Part shown: piece after piece, positions 49,910-64,000 of the stretch | Layout: every line of letters begins with the position of its first letter | How positions within the stretch are numbered: position 1 is the stretch's first letter | Assembly: GCA_003574685.1 (NCBI GenBank) | Contig: QOCQ01000007.1 | Coordinates: forward strand, 1 to 64,000 | Source: Rhodospirillaceae bacterium SYSU D60007 | GTDB lineage: Bacteria; Pseudomonadota; Alphaproteobacteria; Reyranellales; Reyranellaceae | Length of the DNA: 64,000 nucleotides | Direction of reading: 5' to 3' | Position numbers and translations under genes: made by a program | The notes under the pieces: model-generated | Told to the model about the DNA's origin: nothing | The model's input: only the letters and a program-made list of their open reading frames with translations | Database searches by the model: none

Positions 49910-50049
49910 CCTTCCCCCGGAGGGGGAAGGTGCCCCGAAGGGGCGAAAGGGGGATGGCGCAACACCTTCGGCGTCTCACCGTTAGCGCCGTGCCGGTTGA
50001 GGCATCCCCCTTCCGGCGCTACGCGCCACCTTCCCCCTCCGGGGGAAGG
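49910..50049. repeat. Palindromic repeat family E, copy 1
   Basis: Each end is a 21-base palindrome with CTTCCCCCGGAGGGGGAAG at its core (49910-49930 and 50029-50049). Arms of about 45 bases are complementary, with GAAAGGGGGATGG facing CATCCCCCTTCC. Copy 2 at 60.7 kb carries the same arms in reverse orientation with a diverged centre. It lies between two convergent genes and ends two bases before the carboxylase stop. Confidence 0.9.
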
Positions 50050-54115: not shown

Positions 54116-56176
54116 TCAGCCCAGGCTCTTGATGTAGGCCTCCAGGGCAGCGCGGGCGACGTCGACGGCCTTTTCGGCGTCGGCGCGCTGGCGGGCCAGT
54201 GTCTCCAGCTCGTTCTCCTGCCGGTCGAGCGTGGCGAGGTACCGGCGGTGCAGGTCGGAGTTGGTGGGCACGCTGCGCAGGTTCTCGCGAATGCGTTGCT
54301 GCTCCTGGGTGATGCGCGTGCGTTGCGCGTCGGCTTGCTCGATCCGGCCCTGGGCCTGCGTCACGGCGTTCTGGAGCTGGATGATGCGGGTGAGCTGGTC
54401 GCGCGTCTTCTGGTCGAATTCCTTCGCGCGCGCAAAGTACGCGATGCGCTCGGGATCGGCATCCACCAGCTCGAGCTGCTCCAACACCGTCTGCTCCTGC
54501 ACCACCTCGAAGGTGTGGGATTCGCCGCCTTTCAGCTCGAAGGGCACGCGGTACTTGCCCTCGATCTGCCCGACATCCTTGCCTTCGACGTTCACAAGCT
54601 TCCAGCCGGCCAGCCGCGGCGTTTCGACCAGAAGCTGGCGGCTCTCGCGTGCCGGCGCCTTGACCCTGTACGTATTGGTCTGGCGCTGGAGCATCTCGTA
54701 GCGCAGCACCCCCTGGGCGATGCTGCCCCTGACCAGGGTTTCCTTGCGGCCGGTATCGGCCTCGATGGTGATCTTCTGGTCAAGCGCGTAACTCAGCAGC
54801 CGGTTCTCGCCCGGCGGCAGCGCCGACAGCCGCGCGTCGCCGACATAGGCCACATCGCCGCCGGCACCCCGCTCGTAGATCGTCACGATCCCCGGCGGCA
54901 GGGCGGTGCTGTTGTTGTTCTCCAGGCGCACCGATGCCAGCGGATGGCGGGTGTGCGTCTCGGGCTGATACAGCGCCTGACGCTTCACCGGTACGTCGCC
55001 ATCGATGATCGGCACCGACAGCGTGCGGCCGTTGGCAACCGTCACCGGGTTGGGAAAGCGGAACATCACCTGTGTCAGCGCTTCCTGCGCCGCGACCTTT
55101 TCGGAAGGCCCGGCAAACGACGCCATCGGCGCCTCGGCGCTGCGCTCCAGCTTCGGTCCGCCACGCGAGTCGCGGCTGCCGCCGGCCGGCGGTGCCATCT
55201 GCGGGGCCGGCCGTGACGCCGGCGCGGGCGGCGGTGGCGGCACGGGCACGGTTCCCGTATCGGTGCGCGGCATCAGGCGGCCGATCACCTCCACCGGCAC
55301 CCAAGGCCGCTCGACGTAGTAGGACTGGTAAAGCGCCTGACGGAACGCGACCGGATGGCCTGACACCAGCGACAGTTCGACCCCGTTCCAGTCCTGGCCG
55401 CTCATGTTCTCGACCACGGCCCAGCCCTGAAGATGCGCCTTCGTCTCGTTGCCCTCGCCCGGCACGGTCAGCCGATATGACGCCTTCCACAGCGGCGCCG
55501 TGACGATGTAGGCGACGCGCACCGTGCGCTTGCCCTGGCCTCTGGAGGTCAGTTCCACGGTGCGGGCATCCTTGGTGCGGTTCGAGGCGATGGCGGCCAG
55601 CGCCTTTTTGACCTGCTCGCGCACCGCCGGATCGGCGAACTGGAGGTTCTCGGCCTCTTCCAGCACGAATTGCTGCAGGCCCTTGTCGGTCATCACCGTG
55701 ACGCGGTTACGCACGCCGACCTGCCGGCCCTCGGGGCTGAGCACCGGTTCCGCATTAACCGCCACCACCCGGCCGGTGGCCGCGCGCGGACCGCCGACAG
55801 AGATCTCCGCGCCGCGCAGGGCGTTCAGCAACGCTGCCGGCGATGCCAGCGCGTTCTGGTCGAAGGGCAAATCCTTGAACACCTGCGACAGCGGCTCGCG
55901 TCCGGGCAGGCTCAGGCTGCCGACCCCGCCCTTGTCGTCATAGACCACGAGGCTTTTCAGCACGTCATCGACCTGGTCGAGGTTCACCGTCAGCCTGAGG
56001 GTCGCGTCGTTCTCGACCGAGGCCTCGTACTCGAAATAACCCACGCCGCCCGATGACAGCATCACGCGCTTCAGCGCCAGCTCCTGCGCCGCCGCCGGAC
56101 CGGCCACCAGAAGGGCGGCGCCCAGCCCCGCCGCGACGGCGATCCGGCGGCGTGACGAGGTGCGAACATGGGACAT
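54116..56176 (-). CDS. DUF4139 domain protein, exported
   Basis: A 686-residue exported protein. The signal peptide is residues 1-30, cut after AAA before QELALKRV. The N-terminal part (LSSGGVGYFEYEASVENDATL) and the middle (VRVAYIVTAPLWKASYRLTV) are typical of DUF4139 proteins. A Pro-rich linker lies at about 305-335, and the C-terminal 110 residues form a long coiled coil (QLQNAVTQAQGRIEQADAQR). Function is unknown. It starts 78 bases after sufU with a GGAGG ribosome site, and could be the last gene of that operon or independent. Confidence 0.82.
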   Translation of the reverse strand: MSHVRTSSRRRIAVAAGLGAALLVAGPAAAQELALKRVMLSSGGVGYFEYEASVENDATLRLTVNLDQVDDVLKSLVVYDDKGGVGSLSLPGREPLSQVFKDLPFDQNALASPAALLNALRGAEISVGGPRAATGRVVAVNAEPVLSPEGRQVGVRNRVTVMTDKGLQQFVLEEAENLQFADPAVREQVKKALAAIASNRTKDARTVELTSRGQGKRTVRVAYIVTAPLWKASYRLTVPGEGNETKAHLQGWAVVENMSGQDWNGVELSLVSGHPVAFRQALYQSYYVERPWVPVEVIGRLMPRTDTGTVPVPPPPPAPASRPAPQMAPPAGGSRDSRGGPKLERSAEAPMASFAGPSEKVAAQEALTQVMFRFPNPVTVANGRTLSVPIIDGDVPVKRQALYQPETHTRHPLASVRLENNNSTALPPGIVTIYERGAGGDVAYVGDARLSALPPGENRLLSYALDQKITIEADTGRKETLVRGSIAQGVLRYEMLQRQTNTYRVKAPARESRQLLVETPRLAGWKLVNVEGKDVGQIEGKYRVPFELKGGESHTFEVVQEQTVLEQLELVDADPERIAYFARAKEFDQKTRDQLTRIIQLQNAVTQAQGRIEQADAQRTRITQEQQRIRENLRSVPTNSDLHRRYLATLDRQENELETLARQRADAEKAVDVARAALEAYIKSLG

Positions 56177-56254
56177 TGATTTAGCCTCCCGACAGCGTCA
56201 GCGAGCGAATACTCACCATTTGATCATGACGATTTCGCGGCGCCGTGCAGGAAT

Positions 56255-56662
56255 TCAGGAATTGTTCAGCGCCGCTTGCAGGGCTTCGAAAGGAAGGAGC
56301 ACGCAATCGTGCCGGCTGCGATAGGCACGCACCGGCGTGAAGGCCGCAAAGTTGCCCTCGCCCGCCGCCGTGCCCTTGAGAACATCCTCGATCTCTTGCC
56401 GCAGGACCGGGACATCGTCCGCGGGACGGCCCTGTGCGCGCGACCTGAGAGCCACCGCTGCCGCCTGGCAGAGCGCACAGCCGCGCACCTCATGCGCGAT
56501 CTCGGCGATCCTCCCCTCCTCCAGGCGTACATCCATCGTCACGCGATCACCGCACAGCGGGTTATCGCGCCGCGCCGATGCGGTGGGTGCCGGCAACCGG
56601 CCCGCGCCGGTCCGGCTCTTGGCCAGTGCGACGATGCGGTCGTGGTAGAGCGCGTCGTTCAT
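56255..56662 (-). CDS. sufU: SufU-like iron-sulfur scaffold/sulfur-transfer protein
   Basis: A 135-residue IscU/SufU-fold protein. The zinc or cluster ligands are Cys37 and Asp39 in NPLCGDR, Cys62 in RGCALCQAAA (with an extra Cys65) and Cys120 in RHDCVLLPF. SufU proteins accept persulfide sulfur from SufS and pass it on. Its ATG overlaps the sufS stop (ATGA), so the two are made together. sufBCD are not in the window; instead sufS is coupled to molybdenum cofactor genes. Confidence 0.85.
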   Translation of the reverse strand: MNDALYHDRIVALAKSRTGAGRLPAPTASARRDNPLCGDRVTMDVRLEEGRIAEIAHEVRGCALCQAAAVALRSRAQGRPADDVPVLRQEIEDVLKGTAAGEGNFAAFTPVRAYRSRHDCVLLPFEALQAALNNS

Positions 56663-57879
56663 GCGAACCGCCGGACGGTTTCGCGCACGCCATCGATCAG
56701 GGCATCGATGTCGCCGGTGTCATTGTAGGGTGCGATGCAGGCGCGCGTCGTGCCGGAAATGTCGAACCGCTCCATCAGCGGCTGGGCGCAGTGGTGGCCG
56801 GCGCGCACCGCAACGCCGCGCGAATCGAGAATCTGCGCCACGTCGTGCGGGTGGATATCGTCCAACACAAAGGAAATCACCGGCAGCCGTCCTTGCAGGC
56901 CCGCCGGCCCGATGAGCCGGGCGCTGCTTGTTTCGGCCAGCCCGTCCATCAGGCGCTGCGTCAGGGCCATCTCGTGACCGCCCAGCGCGGTCCAGTCCTG
57001 CTCCATCATCCAGCGACATGCCGCGCCCAGGCCGATCGCAGGCCCGATCGGCGGGGTGCCAGCCTCGAAGCGGCGCGGCGGCGGCGCCCAGGTGATCGCC
57101 TCGAAGGTGACGTTGCCGATCATCGAACCGCCGCCCATGAAGGGCGGCATCGCCTCCAGCAACTCCTTGCGCGCCCACAGCACGCCGATGCCGTTGGGCC
57201 CATACGCCTTGTGACCGGCGAAGGCATAGAAATCGATTCCCAGCCCTGGCAGGTCGAGTGGTCCGTGAGGGGCTCGCTGCGCACCGTCGAGCATCACCCG
57301 TGCGCCCACCGCGCGCGCCGCCGCCACGACGGCCGCGACATCCAGCACCGCGCCGGTGACGTTGGAGACATGCGCCAGCGAGATCAGCCGGGTGCGTTCC
57401 GTCACGACCTGCGGCAGGCCCGCCACGTCGATGCGTCCCTCATCCGTCACCGGCAACGGCCGCAGCCTCAGGCCGGCGCGCTGTGCGAGCTGATACCAGG
57501 GGACGATGTTGGAATGATGCTCCAGTTCCGAGAGCACGATCTCGTCGCCCGGCCTGAGCAGGCTGCCGTAGCTGTGGGCCACGAGATTGATCGCCGCCGT
57601 GCAGCCGCCGGTGAACATCACCTCCTCGGCCGGAACGCCAAGGAACTGCGCAACCTCGGCGCGGGCGTTCTCATAGGCTTCGGTTGCCGCTTCGGCCAGC
57701 GCATGCACGCCGCGCAGCACGTTGGCGCGCGATGTGGTTTCGTAGGCGTGCACGGCGTCAAGCACGGCCTGTGGCACCTGCGCTGATGCGCCATTGTCGA
57801 GGTAGTGCAGCGGCTTGCCGTTGATCGGCCGGTTCAGGATGGGGAACTGCCGGCGGATGGCGGCGACATCGACGCTCAT
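56659..57879 (-). CDS. sufS: Cysteine desulfurase, SufS type
   Basis: A 406-residue PLP enzyme that releases sulfur from cysteine as an enzyme persulfide. It has ELEHHSNIVPWYQLA, the Schiff-base lysine Lys224 in FAGHKAYGPNG, and the persulfide cysteine Cys364 in RAGHHCAQPLM, all class II (SufS/CsdA/NifS4-like) features. The ATG at 57879 overlaps the stop of the molybdopterin-binding/cytidylyltransferase gene (ATGA), and its own stop overlaps sufU. Here it may supply sulfur for molybdenum cofactor sulfuration rather than only Fe-S assembly; this is inference from context. Confidence 0.9.
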   Translation of the reverse strand: MSVDVAAIRRQFPILNRPINGKPLHYLDNGASAQVPQAVLDAVHAYETTSRANVLRGVHALAEAATEAYENARAEVAQFLGVPAEEVMFTGGCTAAINLVAHSYGSLLRPGDEIVLSELEHHSNIVPWYQLAQRAGLRLRPLPVTDEGRIDVAGLPQVVTERTRLISLAHVSNVTGAVLDVAAVVAAARAVGARVMLDGAQRAPHGPLDLPGLGIDFYAFAGHKAYGPNGIGVLWARKELLEAMPPFMGGGSMIGNVTFEAITWAPPPRRFEAGTPPIGPAIGLGAACRWMMEQDWTALGGHEMALTQRLMDGLAETSSARLIGPAGLQGRLPVISFVLDDIHPHDVAQILDSRGVAVRAGHHCAQPLMERFDISGTTRACIAPYNDTGDIDALIDGVRETVRRFA

Positions 57880-59546
57880 GCCGCCTCCGTCTTGCGGTCG
57901 CGGCTGCGGAACGCTTCGAGCGCTTCGGGCGTGTCGAGATCGATCAGCACACCCTCGCTGCCCATATCGACCTCGCACACGAGATCGGCGTGCTCGCCAA
58001 TCAGGTGTTTCGCTCCCGTGTCACCGGAAACGGCCGCCATCTCGGCAAAGAACCGGCGGTCCCACAGGACGGGATTGCCGCGCTTGCCCGCCACGGTCGG
58101 CACGCAGATGGCGCGGCCCTCGACGGGATTGAAGGCGGCGATCAGCCGGTCGAGCTGCGCGGGGGCCACCGCCGGCATGTCGCCCAGGCAGACAAGCACC
58201 CCGTCGATATCCGCCGGCAACGCCGCGAGACCCGCCCGCAGCGACGCGCTCAGCCCTTCGGCGAAGTCCGGATTCTCGACGTATTTGACCTTTTCGGCAG
58301 CCCCTCCCAAAGCGGCCACGGCCTGCCTGACCTCGGGGGCCATGTGGCCCAGCACGACAACCGTCAGGACGGCTTGTGAGGCCATCGCCGCCTGCACCAC
58401 ATGCGAGACCATCGGCAATCCGCCGATATGGGCCAGCAGCTTGTTGGGGCCACCCATGCGGCTGGAACGGCCGGCCGCCAGCACCAGCGCGGCGATGCGC
58501 GGGGCTCGCGGCGGCGCCTCCGCTGGCTCGGCGGCTTCGGTATTCTTCCCCGCGCGCGGTACGCCGCGGCTGGGCGTTTCGGCGAGCAAGCCGCCAACGC
58601 CCAGGCTCATCACTTCGCGGCGGCCAACCGGGAGCCCCGCCGCGAGGCGCTGCAAGACATAGTCGAAGCCGTTGAACTTCGGCGACTTGGCACACCCGGG
58701 CAGGCCGATGGCCGGCTTGCCGTCGATCTCGCCCATCAGCAGCAGGTTGCCCGGATCGACCGGCATCCCGAAATGCGTGATCCTGCCGCCGGCGCCTTCG
58801 ATGCCGACCGGAATGGTGTCGCGCCGGTCCACGATGGCCGACGCACCGGCGACCAGAAAGAAATCGCAGCCCTCGGCCTTCAGCTCCCGCAGCGCCGCGG
58901 CAATGGCCGCCTCGTCGTGGGCCACGCGCCGTTCGCCGTGAAGCACGCCGCCGACGCCGGCCAGACGCGCGCGCGTCGTCTCGCTGGTCTTTTCCAGCAC
59001 CTTGGCACGCGTGCCCGGCAGGCTCGTCTGGATCAGCCCGGCCTTGAAGGCTCGGAATGCCGCGACCGACACCAGCGGCTTGCCACCGATCAACTCCAAT
59101 GCGCGTTGCAGTGCCGCGCGCGGCACCGCGAACGGAATGATCTTGATGGTCGCCACCATCTGTTTCGGCGCGACCGCGGCAAAGGCGGGCAGCGTCGCGA
59201 TGGTAATGGACTCGTCGATCGCATTGAGCGCTTCGATGCGGACGGCATCGACCGTTACGACGCCGGCGACGGCCGCGAACAGGTTGGCCCGGCCTGTAAA
59301 GGGTGCTGTCGGCGTCAGGCCCTCACCGCCGGCAGCGGCCGCGATGGCCCGCGCGGCTTCGTCCTCGTGCACGTCGTCGGCATCGAGCACGGCGGCAACG
59401 ATCGTGGACACGCCGGCAGCCCTGAGCTTCGTCACGTCGTCGGCGGAGAGCCGCCGGCCCTTGGCGAAGTTCAGGCCGTGGTCACGGAACGCGTGCGCAA
59501 GGATCGCACCATCAGCCGCGTCGATCGAAACATCGCCGAACTTCAT
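57876..59546 (-). CDS. Molybdopterin-binding / NTP-transferase (MocA-like) fusion protein
   Basis: A 556-residue fusion. Residues 1 to about 320 are a MoeA/MogA-like molybdopterin-binding unit (GRRLSADDVTKLRAAGVSTI, FFLVAGASAIVDRRDTIP). After a short Pro/Ala linker, residues 350-556 are a nucleotidyltransferase with LVLAAGRSSRMGGPNKLLA (356 onward) and VCLGDMPAVAP. The second half is the MocA/MobA fold that attaches CMP or GMP to molybdopterin; a gene with Mo-hydroxylase partners points to CMP. It is coupled to sufS by ATGA overlap and lies 4 bases after the XdhC C-terminal gene. Confidence 0.85.
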   Translation of the reverse strand: MKFGDVSIDAADGAILAHAFRDHGLNFAKGRRLSADDVTKLRAAGVSTIVAAVLDADDVHEDEAARAIAAAAGGEGLTPTAPFTGRANLFAAVAGVVTVDAVRIEALNAIDESITIATLPAFAAVAPKQMVATIKIIPFAVPRAALQRALELIGGKPLVSVAAFRAFKAGLIQTSLPGTRAKVLEKTSETTRARLAGVGGVLHGERRVAHDEAAIAAALRELKAEGCDFFLVAGASAIVDRRDTIPVGIEGAGGRITHFGMPVDPGNLLLMGEIDGKPAIGLPGCAKSPKFNGFDYVLQRLAAGLPVGRREVMSLGVGGLLAETPSRGVPRAGKNTEAAEPAEAPPRAPRIAALVLAAGRSSRMGGPNKLLAHIGGLPMVSHVVQAAMASQAVLTVVVLGHMAPEVRQAVAALGGAAEKVKYVENPDFAEGLSASLRAGLAALPADIDGVLVCLGDMPAVAPAQLDRLIAAFNPVEGRAICVPTVAGKRGNPVLWDRRFFAEMAAVSGDTGAKHLIGEHADLVCEVDMGSEGVLIDLDTPEALEAFRSRDRKTEAA

Positions 59547-59550
59547 GGCA

Positions 59551-60273
59551 TCACGCTGCCTTGACCTTGCGTTCCGCCGGTTCCGTCTGCGCGGTGCGGG
59601 TGCGGATGATCTCCGCGAGGATCGAGATGGCGATCTCGGCCGGCGATCGCGCGCCAATATCGAGACCGACGGGCCCATGAATGCGCCCGAACTGGGCCTC
59701 CGTGATGCCGGCGTCCAGCAGGCGCGCCTTTCGCTTCTCATGCGTACGCCGGCTACCCAGTGAGCCGACATAGAAGGCGTCCGACGTCAGCGCCACCTGC
59801 AGGGCAGGATCGTCAAGCTTGGGATCGTGGGTCAGTGTCACCACGGCCGTTGATGCGTCAGGCTTCAGCCGTTCCATCGCCTCGTCCGGCCATTCCTGCA
59901 GCACGGTGACGTTGGGAAAACGATAGTCGGCCGCGAAGGCGCGGCGCGGATCCACGACGATAACGTCGTAGCCGGTCATGGCCGCCATCGGCACCAGCGC
60001 CTGGGCGATATGGACCGCGCCCACGACGATCATCCTGGGCGGCGGCACAAAGGCGTGAAGGAACACCTTGCCGGCGCTGGTGTCGACCGTCTCGCTGCGG
60101 CCGCTGGCCAGCGCGGCGCGGGCGGCTGCAACGACATCGGCCTGCGCCAGCTCGCCATCGACACGGTCTGCATATACCAGCGCTTCGGCGCCGTCGGCGA
60201 TGCGCTTGGCCAGCACGATGGCCCGGCGGGAATCGCGCGCCGCCTGGACGGCCTTGAGCGTCTCGAGCTTCAT
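59551..60273 (-). CDS. XdhC family protein, Rossmann (C-terminal) half
   Basis: A 240-residue protein with the XdhC Rossmann domain: RMIVVGAVHIAQALVPMAAMTGYDVIVVDPRRAF, then THDPKLDDPALQVAL, YVGSLGSRRTHEKRKARLL and GLDIGARSPAEIAISILAEII. XdhC proteins bind the molybdenum cofactor, aid its sulfuration and insert it into xanthine-dehydrogenase or CO-dehydrogenase type enzymes. The usual N-terminal half is a separate gene 18 bases upstream. AGGGG precedes the ATG. Confidence 0.88.
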   Translation of the reverse strand: MKLETLKAVQAARDSRRAIVLAKRIADGAEALVYADRVDGELAQADVVAAARAALASGRSETVDTSAGKVFLHAFVPPPRMIVVGAVHIAQALVPMAAMTGYDVIVVDPRRAFAADYRFPNVTVLQEWPDEAMERLKPDASTAVVTLTHDPKLDDPALQVALTSDAFYVGSLGSRRTHEKRKARLLDAGITEAQFGRIHGPVGLDIGARSPAEIAISILAEIIRTRTAQTEPAERKVKAA

Positions 60274-60291
60274 GTTGGCACCCCTGCCCGG

Positions 60292-60615
60292 CTAGCCCAC
60301 CCGTTCGACGAACACCTGCACCTTGCCGCCACAGGCGAGGCCCACATCCCAGGCCTGCTCGTCGGTAACGCCGAAATCGAGCAGGCGTGGCTTGCCGTCA
60401 CCGATCGCCTCGACGGCTTCCTTGACCACGGCGCCCTCGATGCAGCCGCCCGAGACCGAGCCCATCATGTTGCCATCCTGATCAACGACGAGCTGGCTGC
60501 CGACAGGCCGTGGCGACGATCCCCACGTCAGCGTAACCGTGGCCAGCGCCACGCCGCGGCCCTCCGCCTTCCACGCCGCCGCCGTGCCGAGAATGTCTTC
60601 CGCCGCTGCTGTCAT
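60292..60615 (-). CDS. XdhC/CoxI family protein, N-terminal half as a separate gene
   Basis: A 107-residue protein matching the N-terminal XdhC_CoxI domain: GVALATVTLTWGSSPRPVGSQLVVDQDG and GSVSGGCIEGAVVKEA, ending DVGLACGGKVQVFVERV. With the next gene it reconstitutes a full XdhC. GAGAGGAAG directly precedes the ATG at 60615. A Mo-box-like palindrome lies 24-47 bases upstream, so this is likely the first gene of a molybdate-controlled operon that runs on to sufU. Confidence 0.88.
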   Translation of the reverse strand: MTAAAEDILGTAAAWKAEGRGVALATVTLTWGSSPRPVGSQLVVDQDGNMMGSVSGGCIEGAVVKEAVEAIGDGKPRLLDFGVTDEQAWDVGLACGGKVQVFVERVG

Positions 60616-60638
60616 CTTCCTCTCCAGAGCCGACGATA

Positions 60639-60662
60639 CGTTATATATGGCAGTATATCACG
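60639..60662. promoter_or_regulatory. Mo-box-like operator (ModE/MopA type)
   Basis: CGTTATATA (60639-60647) and TATATCACG (60654-60662) form an inverted repeat with one mismatch across a 6-base spacer. This is the layout of Mo-boxes bound by ModE/MopA/MopB regulators (as I recall it, CGnTATATA-N6-TATAnnCG). On the reverse strand TATACT inside it could be a -10 box, so binding would block transcription of the xdhC operon. Confidence 0.72.
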
Positions 60663-60696
60663 CCTTCAATTGCAACAGGACAATGGCAGCTCATGG

Positions 60697-60834
60697 CCTT
60701 CCCCCGGAGGGGGAAGGTGGCGCGCAGCGCCGGAAGGGGGATGCCGCCGCATGCACGGTGTCAAAGACGAGTCACCGCGGGTGTTGCACCATCCCCCTTC
60801 CGCCCTTCGGGCACCTTCCCCCTCCGGGGGAAGG
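60697..60834. repeat. Palindromic repeat family E, copy 2 (reverse orientation)
   Basis: The ends are the same 21-base palindromes as copy 1 (60697-60717 and 60814-60834), with arms containing GGAAGGGGGATG and CATCCCCCTTCC. Reverse complementing aligns it with copy 1 over both arms; the central 50 bases differ apart from a short GCAACACC block. It lies between coxE and the split xdhC genes. Confidence 0.9.
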
Positions 60835-60860
60835 TTGTTCTTGGCTAGCGAAAGCGTCCG

Positions 60861-62090
60861 CTACGCCGCCCTTGCGCGGGCTTGCCAGGCGACGAGGCCG
60901 TCCATGCGGCGCGGGGCCGGTGCGCCCAGCGCGTCGACCAGCTCGGCGAGGCTCTCCAGATTGTGGACGGGCCGGAAATCGTCGACGTGGGCAATCATGG
61001 CGCGGTTGCCGAGCGAGCGCGGTTCGTAGCCTTCATAGCGCAAAAGCGGATTCAGCCAGATCAGGCGGCGACAGGATTTGTGCAGCCGCTCCATCTGGGC
61101 CTCCAGGCCATGCGCACCGTCGCGATCCAGCCCATCGGTGATCAGCAGCACCACGGCTCCCTGGCCCAGCACACGGCGCGACCACAGCCGGTTGAACTCC
61201 TCCAGCGTCGCACCGATGCGCGTGCCGCCGGACCAGTCCTCGACCTGGCTCGATGCCTTGGCCAGCGCCACGTCCACGTCCTTGTTGCGCAGGGCGCGCG
61301 TGACGTTGGTCAGGCGGGTGCCGAATGTGAAGCAGTAAACCCGGTCGCGATCGTTGGTGATCGCATGCATGAAGTGCAGGAACATCCGGCTGTACTTGCT
61401 CATCGAGCCGGAGATATCGCACAGGATCACCAGCGGCGGCGGCCGCCGCCGCTGCACGCGCCGCGCCAGATCGATCACCCCGTGTGGCTTGAGCGAGCGC
61501 CGGAACGTGGCGCGCATGTCGATCTTCGCACCGTGTGCCGAGGCTTCCGTCCGCCGGGTTCGTGCTTCCCGGATCGGCAGCGTCAGGCGCTTGATCGCCT
61601 TCATCGCCTGCGCGATCTCGGTGGCCGACATCTGCTCGAAATCCTTCCTCTGCAGAAGCTCGCGGTCGGAGAAGGTCAGCGTCGCCTCCATCTCGACCTC
61701 AGGCGGCTGTTCGGCGTCATCGGGCGATTCGCCGCGGCCCGGCTGCAGCGCCTCCTGCAGCCGCCGGCTCATCTGCTTGCGGCTCTCCGGCTCTTCACCG
61801 GTATCGACCTGGGGCAGCAGCATGCCCATCATCTTTTCCAGCAGCCGGGGATTGCGCCAAAAGATGTGGAAGGCCTGATCGAAAATCTCGCGCTGGTCGC
61901 GCCGGTTCACGAACACGCTGAACAGCGTCCAGTAGAGATCCTCGCGCCGCTGCAATCCGGCCGCCTCGACCGCGCGCACCGCCTCGATCACGCGGCCCGG
62001 CCCGATCGGCAGCCCGGCGGCGCGCAAGGTGCGCGCGAAATTCATGATGTTGGCGACGAGCTTGCCTTCGGCAGGGGCGGCTTCAGGCAT
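60861..62090 (-). CDS. coxE: CoxE-like VWA-domain protein
   Basis: A 409-residue protein with an N-terminal helical region (AGLPIGPGRVIEAVRAVEAAGL) and a C-terminal von Willebrand A domain carrying the MIDAS motif DISGSMS (about residue 223), SGGTRIGATLEEFNRLW and LLITDGLDRDG. In CO dehydrogenase clusters CoxE works with the CoxD AAA+ ATPase to mature the Mo/Cu active site. coxD lies 22 bases upstream on the same strand. Confidence 0.88.
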   Translation of the reverse strand: MPEAAPAEGKLVANIMNFARTLRAAGLPIGPGRVIEAVRAVEAAGLQRREDLYWTLFSVFVNRRDQREIFDQAFHIFWRNPRLLEKMMGMLLPQVDTGEEPESRKQMSRRLQEALQPGRGESPDDAEQPPEVEMEATLTFSDRELLQRKDFEQMSATEIAQAMKAIKRLTLPIREARTRRTEASAHGAKIDMRATFRRSLKPHGVIDLARRVQRRRPPPLVILCDISGSMSKYSRMFLHFMHAITNDRDRVYCFTFGTRLTNVTRALRNKDVDVALAKASSQVEDWSGGTRIGATLEEFNRLWSRRVLGQGAVVLLITDGLDRDGAHGLEAQMERLHKSCRRLIWLNPLLRYEGYEPRSLGNRAMIAHVDDFRPVHNLESLAELVDALGAPAPRRMDGLVAWQARARAA

Positions 62091-62112
62091 AGCGTTCAGT
62101 CCCGGCCTTCAT

Positions 62113-63039
62113 TCACCCGGCGGCATGCCCGACCAGCATCTCGCTCTTGACCCGCTCGAGGATCTGGGCGGCCTCGCTGCCTTGCAGGCGCTGAATGTCG
62201 TCCTGATATTTCAGAAGGACGCCCAGCGTGTCGTTGATCGTGCGGGGATCGAGATCGAGCACATTGAGCTCGTTGAGGGCCGTGGCCCAGTCGATCGACT
62301 CGGCGACGCCGGGCGCCTTGAAAAGGTCCATGCGCCTCAGCTCCTGCACGAAGCCCACGACCTGGCGCGTCAGGCGCTCCGGCGCGCCCGGCGCCTTGAC
62401 CGCCAGGATCTGCTGCTCGCGCGCGGCATCGGGATAATCCACCCAGTGATAGAAGCAGCGGCGCTTCAGCGCGTCGTGAATTTCGCGCGTGCGGTTGGAG
62501 GTAATGATCACGATCGGCGGGGCCGGCGCCTTCACGGTGCCGAGCTCGGGAATAGTGACCTGAAAGTCCGACAGCACTTCCAGCAGATAGGCTTCGAAGG
62601 GCTCGTCGGTGCGGTCCAGCTCGTCGATCAGCAGCACCGGCGGGCCTTCCGGCTGCGGCTGCAGCGCTTCCAGCAGCGGCCGGCGGATCAGGAACTTTTC
62701 CGCGAACACGTCGCTGCCCAGCAGGTCGCGATCGACATTGCCCTGGGCCTCCGCCAGCCGGATCTCGATCATCTGCCGCGCATAGTTCCACTCGTACACG
62801 GCCGAGGCCGCATCGAGGCCCTCGTAGCATTGCAGCCGGATCAGGCGCCGCCCCAGCGTTTGAGCGAGCACCTTGGCGATCTCGGTCTTGCCCGTGCCGG
62901 CTTCGCCCTCGGTGAAGAGCGGCCGCCCCAGCTTCAGCGCCAGATAAAGGACGGTGGCGAGGCTGCGGTCAGCGACGTAATCGCCCTTGCGCAGCAGCTC
63001 AAGCGTGGCATCGATGGAAGCGGGAATCCGGCGGGTCAT
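62113..63039 (-). CDS. coxD: CoxD-like MoxR AAA+ ATPase
   Basis: A 308-residue AAA+ chaperone-like ATPase of the MoxR group. Walker A is GEAGTGKTE (about 44-52), Walker B VLLIDELDRTD, sensor 1 IITSNRTREI. RLQCYEGLDAASAVYEWNYARQM is characteristic of CoxD. It is thought to unfold or remodel the Mo-hydroxylase for cofactor insertion, using the CoxE VWA protein as adaptor. It appears to be the first gene of the coxD-coxE unit; the 155-base gap before the divergent SDR gene shows no obvious operator. Confidence 0.9.
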   Translation of the reverse strand: MTRRIPASIDATLELLRKGDYVADRSLATVLYLALKLGRPLFTEGEAGTGKTEIAKVLAQTLGRRLIRLQCYEGLDAASAVYEWNYARQMIEIRLAEAQGNVDRDLLGSDVFAEKFLIRRPLLEALQPQPEGPPVLLIDELDRTDEPFEAYLLEVLSDFQVTIPELGTVKAPAPPIVIITSNRTREIHDALKRRCFYHWVDYPDAAREQQILAVKAPGAPERLTRQVVGFVQELRRMDLFKAPGVAESIDWATALNELNVLDLDPRTINDTLGVLLKYQDDIQRLQGSEAAQILERVKSEMLVGHAAG

Positions 63040-63194
63040 CTACAAGCTCACAGGAAGAAGGCGGCGGATATTAGCGAACCGGCGGGCAGTATCCCACCGC
63101 ATTGCCATGCGGATAGCGCGCCCATGCCCTTCCCGTGTGCGCCTTCAAGCCGCTACAGTCTGTCGCACCTGCGGGGCACTGAGAGGAAATGCGC

Positions 63195-63938
63195 ATGTAC
63201 GCCGGCATGTTCAAGGAGAAGGTCGCCGTGGTCACCGGCGGCGCCCGCGGTATCGGCCTTGCGTGCGCGCAGAGCCTCAGCAGCCTCGGCGCCAAAGTCG
63301 CGCTCTGGGATCGCGACAACACAGAGGTTTCGAAGGCCGCATCCGGTCTCGACGGCTGCGTTGGCATCGGCATGGATGTCACGGTCGAGGAGGGTGTCGC
63401 CGGTGCGCTCGCCAAAACGGAAAGCGATCTGGGTCCCGTGGACATCCTGGTGGCCAGCGCCGGCATCACTGGTCCGAACAAGACTGTCGCGGACTATGGG
63501 CTGGCCGAATGGAAGCAGGTGATCGACGTCAATCTCGTCGGCCTGTTTCTGTGCAACCGCGCGGTGGTGCCGGGCATGGCAAAGCGCGGCTGGGGTCGCA
63601 TCGTCAACATCGCTTCCATTGCCGGCAAGGAAGGCAATCCCAACGCGTCGGCCTATTCCGCATCCAAGGCCGGCGTGATCGGCCTGACCAAGTCGCTGGG
63701 CAAGGAGCTGGCGAATACCGGCGTGCTGGTGAACTGCGTGTGCCCGGCCGCGATCCGCACGGACATCTTCAAGCAGATGACGGAGCAGCACATCGCCTTC
63801 ATGCTGTCGAAGATCCCGATGGGCCGCTTCGCCACAGTGGAGGAAGCGGCCGCCATGGTGACGTGGCTGGCCTCGCCGCTCTGCACCTTCAACACCGGCG
63901 CCGTCTTCGACCTCTCCGGCGGCCGCGCCACCTACTAG
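63195..63938 (+). CDS. Short-chain dehydrogenase/reductase
   Basis: A 247-residue classical SDR. Its NAD(P)-binding motif is TGGARGIG, LVASAGITG follows the fourth strand, the catalytic Ser is in NIASIAGKEG and Tyr/Lys in YSASKAG. LSGGRATY closes the fold. It has the pattern of a 3-oxoacyl-ACP-reductase-like or sugar/hydroxyacid SDR; the substrate is unknown. ATG 63195 is chosen because GAGAGG lies 8 bases upstream; the ATG at 63189 is too near it. Confidence 0.88.
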   Translation: MYAGMFKEKVAVVTGGARGIGLACAQSLSSLGAKVALWDRDNTEVSKAASGLDGCVGIGMDVTVEEGVAGALAKTESDLGPVDILVASAGITGPNKTVADYGLAEWKQVIDVNLVGLFLCNRAVVPGMAKRGWGRIVNIASIAGKEGNPNASAYSASKAGVIGLTKSLGKELANTGVLVNCVCPAAIRTDIFKQMTEQHIAFMLSKIPMGRFATVEEAAAMVTWLASPLCTFNTGAVFDLSGGRATY

Positions 63939-64000
63939 GCCGATGTCGCCTGTCCCAGCGCGGGGACGACGCCGCGGACGCTTGCCTCGACCATGCCGCG
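63935..64000 (-). CDS. Possible 3' end of a gene cut by the right edge
   Basis: The reverse strand is open for 22 codons, reading RGMVEASVRGVVPALGQATSA then TAG. 18 of 21 third positions are G or C, as in neighbouring genes. The stop overlaps the SDR stop on the other strand. The rest lies outside the window, and nothing in it identifies a family. Confidence 0.35.
   Translation of the reverse strand, partial: RGMVEASVRGVVPALGQATSA

Follow-up and report, generated by a model that had tools for sequence, protein, structure and literature searches.

A candidate ModE operator in front of a probable molybdenum-cofactor sulfuration operon in Reyranellaceae

Results

A five-gene molybdenum-cofactor operon

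The 64-kb stretch of DNA analyzed here (hereafter, the window) belongs to a genome (G000) of 5.34 Mb that is 99.8% complete; among named relatives, Vineibacter terrae and Reyranella sp. CPCC 100927 are nearest to it. Two cox-like genes, an intergenic region with a palindrome and five genes that appear to be devoted to the molybdenum cofactor (Moco) follow one another in the direction of transcription:

62113..63039, minus strand, MoxR/CoxD-like AAA+ ATPase (PF07728, PF00004)
60861..62090, minus strand, CoxE-like VWA protein, upstream of the palindrome (PF05762, 232.9 bits)
60664..60669, minus strand, -35-like TTGAAG (by sequence; ATTG invariant in four genus members; not called at the threshold of the sigma-70 scan)
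60639..60662, no strand assigned, Mo-box-like palindrome, candidate ModE operator (by sequence, pattern scans, matrix and conservation)
60640..60647, minus strand, -10-like TATATA/TATAAC within one arm of the palindrome (by sequence; arm invariant in four of four genus members)
60292..60615, minus strand, XdhC_CoxI N-terminal domain protein of 107 aa, first gene of the operon (PF02625, 91.5 bits)
59551..60273, minus strand, XdhC C-terminal Rossmann protein of 240 aa (PF13478, 151.6 bits)
57876..59546, minus strand, MocA/MobA-like fusion of 556 aa with a C-terminal nucleotidyltransferase (PF12804, 126.8 bits)
56659..57879, minus strand, SufS-family cysteine desulfurase (TIGR01979, 498 bits, above cut-off; ATGA overlap with the preceding gene)
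56255..56662, minus strand, SufU-like sulfur-transfer protein (PF01592; TIGR01994, 73.1 bits, under the cut-off of 92.5; ATGA overlap with sufS)

The junctions between the five genes are, in order, gaps of 18 bp and 4 bp and then two 4-base ATGA overlaps. Given this tight packing a single transcript is likely, and sufS and sufU, which the preliminary description had counted as part of the unit led by the palindrome, are very likely included in it. The 556-aa fusion scores 154.8 bits against TIGR03310, under the cut-off of 186.45, and its N-terminal part is weakly like a molybdopterin-biosynthesis protein (NF011068, 30.7 bits, far under cut-off).

The SufS of the operon is the only protein of the genome above the TIGR01979 cut-off. 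A search for SufB (TIGR01980 at an E value of 1e-20) found no match in the genome, and the same search was positive in 14 of 14 control genomes; an ISC-type row of genes, for IscS, IscU, HscB, HscA and a ferredoxin (named by reading the sequence), lies on contig C2. A housekeeping SUF role for sufS and sufU was rejected, since no SufB was found and the ISC-type row is present. Because of that row, the absent SufB match and the ATGA overlap, the two genes probably serve Moco sulfuration and would constitute a specialised sulfur-transfer pair. As the genome has 17 matches to PF02738, a domain of the large subunit of Mo-hydroxylases, a dedicated role in Moco sulfuration is the simplest inference.

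A Mo-box-like palindrome

The palindrome, CGTTATATA-TGGCAG-TATATCACG, occupies positions 60639-60662 of the window and has a G+C content of 37.5%, as compared to 66.5% for the window. Thus, the earlier account of a palindrome standing out in a GC-rich region holds, as does its placement 24-47 bases before the first gene of the operon, the minus-strand XdhC_CoxI gene with its ATG at 60615. The same account had credited the palindrome with the half-sites and 6-base spacing of a Mo-box. Indeed, the Mo-box pattern CGNTATATA-N6-TATATNNCG fits with no mismatch on one strand and one on the other. The E. coli ModE consensus, as quoted in the available portion of PMC545781, is ATCGNTATATA-[N6]-TATATANCGAT; the inner arms of the palindrome agree with this quoted form save for one base (A to C), and none of its four outermost A/T positions is matched. 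Rfam gave no match at the gathering threshold in 56000-64000, whether to the Moco riboswitch or to another RNA leader, and a known RNA leader of that kind was rejected on this ground.

Might the palindrome have arisen by chance as AT-rich promoter DNA, or serve an unrelated regulator? A -10-like hexamer overlaps it, and an AT-rich promoter readily looks special in a GC-rich genome. Nevertheless, the palindrome is far beyond chance: its pattern, with up to three mismatches allowed, has no second match within the 64-kb window and appeared in none of 100 dinucleotide shuffles. We also built a palindromic matrix, using 15 boxes from relatives that do not belong to the genus. For seven of these boxes the following gene was confirmed as modA by TIGR01256 and the others were placed by reading open reading frames; two of the latter (L199 and L202) precede genes other than modA, at distances of about 0.8 and 1.4 kb from modE. 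(Ten ModA proteins, including three from the genus, were tested against TIGR01256, and all ten exceed its cut-off.) With this independently trained matrix the palindrome scores 22.3 bits and the second-best site in the window 6.3, while the best score among 100 first-order Markov windows was 14.8, so that none of the 100 reached that of the palindrome. Scores of the training boxes run from 33 to 42 bits; the palindrome, which lies about 11 bits below the weakest of them, is therefore a weaker-than-typical box.

The wider genome and the related genomes also argue against a chance or unrelated element. When the whole genome was searched for the core CGNTATA-N10-TATANCG with at most one mismatch, it was found in three places, C31:6339, C31:6383 and the palindrome; modA, whose product scores 185.5 bits against TIGR01256 (cut-off 62.5), starts at C31:6422, downstream of the other two boxes. 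The count of three does not exceed that of a control with the pattern reversed (2 forward and 2 reverse); what is telling is not the number but the places, in front of modA and of the operon. The pattern CGNTATATA-N6-TATATNNCG, with up to two mismatches, found the palindrome and C31:6339 and nothing else in the genome. At three mismatches it gave 7 and 8 sites against 11 and 6 for the control, no excess, and the three-mismatch sites elsewhere in the genome (L020 and L023 among them) were not accepted. Finally, the palindrome is conserved in all four members of the genus while its flanks drift, as described below. Taken with the shuffles and the matrix, these results make a chance or unrelated element very improbable.

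A single-domain ModE protein

The preliminary description had made its proposal hang on a ModE- or Mop-type regulator being present, and we found one: a ModE-type helix-turn-helix (HTH) protein is encoded at C31:9005-9400, adjoining modABC and convergent with modC. It has 131 aa from the ATG chosen and scores 81.4 bits against TIGR00637 (ModE_repress), under the curated cut-off of 98.5; the other TIGR00637 matches in the genome are far weaker, which leaves one convincing ModE homologue. Its N-terminal LysR-like HTH just passes PF00126 (27.0 versus 26.6 bits), it aligns with residues 10-94 of E. coli ModE (1b9m), and it matches PDB 2ijl (135 aa) with an E value of 1e-29. A profile search detected no C-terminal di-Mop/TOBE molybdate-binding domain in the 131-aa protein, only the HTH. 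By its sequence, then, the regulator is a single-domain ModE that lacks the di-Mop sensor. Nor did a search for TOBE domains at E values up to 10 reveal a stand-alone molbindin: the genome has 11 matches, all of which, ModC included, lie in frames of at least 368 aa. A ModE homologue is present in 39 of the 61 genomes searched (our own included) and in 35 of 37 within the family.

The missing sensor raises the possibility that the protein binds the box without sensing molybdate, and is a constitutive or otherwise controlled repressor. Both the domain content of the regulator and the lack of a molbindin among the TOBE matches would fit this, and molybdenum sensing by the single-domain ModE proteins of Desulfovibrio is called not clear in the part of PMC545781 available. 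Against this, the only other boxes found in the source genome precede modABC, and a box in the genus precedes a FecB-type importer (see below), a distribution that fits control of molybdenum uptake. We regard a regulator blind to molybdate as unlikely. Since the palindrome matches sites before modA of the same genome, one small ModE-type regulator probably controls both the molybdate-uptake genes and the cofactor operon, and a response of the operon to molybdate is plausible.

Promoter geometry

The preliminary description had also placed the palindrome over a -10-like box. By eye this overlap is plausible, with TATATA/TATAAC in one arm and, on the minus strand, a spacing of TTGAAG-16 bp-TATATA or TTGAAG-18 bp-TATAAC; a sigma-70 promoter scan run at its own threshold did not bear it out, returning no promoters in 60580-60900. 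Because the box overlaps the likely -10, repression is the better guess. From this geometry and the known E. coli and Rhodobacter cases, we infer that the operon would be turned off when molybdenum is plentiful.

Physiologically, the opposite sign of control would be reasonable in a maturation operon: ModE could activate it, such that cofactor maturation rises with available molybdate. ModE-type proteins can activate, and E. coli ModE does so for moaABCDE. The box here, however, lies over the spacer and the probable -10, where a bound protein would normally keep polymerase out, and we therefore think activation improbable and favor repression.

Conservation in the genus and the family

Among 30 loci examined, the box precedes the same operon in all four members of the genus, and the other 26 have no intergenic box before the xdhC gene (at most 11 of 18 matching bases). 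In an ungapped comparison of the four, one arm is invariant at 9 of 9 bases and the other at 7 of 9, as against 6 of 10 in the -35-like block, 3 of 9 in the nine bases after the box and 0 of 10 in further blocks. In one member, G001, two inserted bases displace one arm; reading the site as CGATATAC-N8-ATATAACG, with an alternative CG, restores the spacing. A confirmed modA is likewise preceded by boxes in each of the four genomes of the genus. Together, the sequence of the palindrome, the modA boxes, the conservation in four of four members and the ModE homologue support its identification as a Mo-box.

The matrix was next applied, with a threshold of 12 bits, to 1.05 Mb of sequence from the 80 best of 212 loci. 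No intergenic box was found before the xdhC gene in the 77 of these that lie outside the genus; the remaining three (L055-L057) are genomes G001, G003 and G002 and are not additional to the four genus members. The distance from coxE to xdhC is at most 22 bp in 71 of the 77 non-genus loci, 84-109 bp in the three loci of the genus and, partly taken up by a repeat, 245 bp in the window. This G+C-rich repeat, CTTCCCCCTCCGGGGGAAGG, occurs on either strand between coxE and the palindrome (60697-60716 and 60815-60834), with further copies near 50 kb (49910-49929 and 50030-50049); a terminator call gives the copy at 60813 as terminator-like on the plus strand.

A Mo-box-like sequence inside coxE

The same scan of the best 80 of 212 loci yielded 24 sites of at least 12 bits, one per locus and all within the coxE-xdhC stretch. 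Three are the intergenic boxes of the genus, and 21, from loci between L071 and L134, lie inside coxE, where all occupy a single codon position, 426-450 bases ahead of the stop; neither kind was found in the other 56 loci. The 21 loci sit on a Reyranella-like branch of the coxE tree, although several of the records carry other titles. They have the same downstream xdhC-sufSU genes and no intergenic box, while coxE of our own genome has no intragenic box.

Might the intragenic sites simply be coding sequence that resembles a box by chance? The commonest codons are CGT TAT AGG GAY GTG GAT ATA GCG, and TAT, the second Asp codon (GAT), ATA and GCG are identical in all 21 genes, whose pairwise DNA identity is 79-94%. 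Outside the box, a single codon is used in only 32 of 253 columns in which the amino acid is invariant, and ATA is rare in these genes (8 of 285 Ile codons). Synonymous resampling of five of the 21 sequences never reached the observed box score (0 of 1500 trials each). When 375 windows of eight codons were ranked by codon bias, the top 12 all proved to overlap the box, which scores -20.5 as against a mean of -9.3 (sd 2.3, minimum -14.0) for non-overlapping windows. Moreover, the second codon of the box encodes Tyr in 21 of 21 genes, whereas among 56 other aligned coxE sequences it is Tyr in 2 and Asn in 32. On the strength of the invariant rare codons, the window bias and the Tyr/Asn column, we rejected chance coding sequence as the explanation.

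In a quick coxE tree made without the box columns (three of the 80 sequences, too short, were dropped from the alignment), the trait needs six changes, two of them forced by well-supported branches. This fits, but does not prove, an old box with later losses. No promoter-like element was seen by eye around the coxE box, and it is a guess that it serves as a roadblock separating coxDE from the xdhC-sufSU genes. In the titles and abstracts of open-access papers, a weak basis, we found no Mo-box before xdhC/sufS or inside coxE.

Other candidate targets

A 13-position pattern with at most one mismatch gave 25 forward matches in the four genus genomes as against 3 for the reversed control. Among the matches listed for the two large genomes G001 and G003, boxes lie before genes for a FecB/FecCD-type importer, DUF2325 proteins, aldehyde dehydrogenases and a luciferase-like monooxygenase, and at a TonB receptor. 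(One copy of each family, and two of aldehyde dehydrogenase, were tested by profile; the rest were assigned by reading.) Two or three boxes precede modA in three genus members (L018:6339-6406, which is contig C31 of G000, L185:1315-1504 and L184:6502-6569), the paired boxes being 44 bases apart.

Boxes directly precede aldehyde dehydrogenase genes (PF00171) at L180:4283-4306, L180:8399-8422 and L216:2073-2096. We can guess that their products are possibly Mo-free substitutes for Mo-dependent aldehyde oxidases under molybdenum shortage. Boxes before genes for DUF2325 proteins occur in two genera, at L182:3403-3469, L180:2879-2902 and L202:1501-1524 (PF10087 in L182 and L202, by resemblance in L180), and these proteins are a candidate recurring target of ModE. 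Finally, boxes at L184:7510-7533 and L180:12205-12228 precede the FecB/FecCD-type ABC importer (PF01497 and PF01032, tested in L184), which is possibly a second molybdate importer.

Discussion

We consider it likely that the palindrome is the operator of a single-domain ModE protein on the core promoter of a five-gene Moco operon. The products of the operon (the two halves of XdhC, the MocA-like fusion, SufS and SufU) would sulfurate and nucleotidylate Moco and deliver it to enzymes of the xanthine-oxidase type. A ModE dimer would bind across the -35/-10 spacer and the -10 and shut out RNA polymerase, and the operon, together with modABC, would in this way be coupled to molybdenum status.

The arrangement resembles Mo-box regulation by ModE and MopA/MopB, as at E. 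coli modABC and Rhodobacter capsulatus anfA, in its half-sites (CGNTATATA), its 24-bp palindrome and its sites at modA, and the HTH domain of the regulator is homologous to that of E. coli ModE. Repression of anfA by MopA/MopB with molybdate is described in the accessible part of PMC7294313. The present system differs in that the regulator has no di-Mop sensor and would act on a Moco-sulfuration operon, not on transporter or nitrogenase genes. In consisting of an HTH domain only, the regulator is like the single-domain ModE proteins represented by PDB 2ijl and those of Desulfovibrio, insofar as the accessible text of PMC545781 describes the latter. The sites of Desulfovibrio have, in that text, another consensus, CGGTCACG-N14-CGTGACCG, whereas the protein studied here goes with the classical Mo-box.

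The genes themselves recall the coxDEF cluster and XdhC/NifS4 maturation, as in Oligotropha and R. capsulatus. With the former they share a row of genes for a CoxD-like AAA+ protein, a CoxE-like VWA protein and an XdhC-family protein. As to the latter, in the passages available from PMC2997495 and PMC4240915, Moco is sulfurated by a cysteine desulfurase working with XdhC, the pairing seen here; in R. capsulatus, Moco is bound by XdhC and receives its sulfur from the desulfurase NifS4 (PMC2997495, likewise in part). Unlike in those systems, XdhC is split between two genes, and sufS, sufU and the MocA-like fusion are added.

The intergenic and intragenic boxes can be joined in a tentative reading, to which we give slightly less than even chances. 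A sensor-less single-domain ModE would long have controlled the sulfuration operon in Reyranellaceae. In many Reyranella-type members its operator would lie inside coxE, where it would force rare codons and a Tyr in place of the Asn of most relatives and may act as a roadblock, and the Vineibacter-like genus would have rebuilt the link in a newly opened intergenic promoter.

If the assignment of the operator is correct, late cofactor maturation, with its own cysteine desulfurase and sulfur carrier, would be tied to the switch for molybdate uptake. With three operators of the CGNTATA-N10-TATANCG pattern and one regulator of 131 aa, the system is small and clean, and it would suit the question, left open for Desulfovibrio in the portion of PMC545781 at hand, of how a ModE protein without a molybdate-binding domain senses molybdenum. 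The coxE operator, if true, would be an unusually clear case of a DNA-binding constraint overriding the choice of codons and even that of an amino acid.
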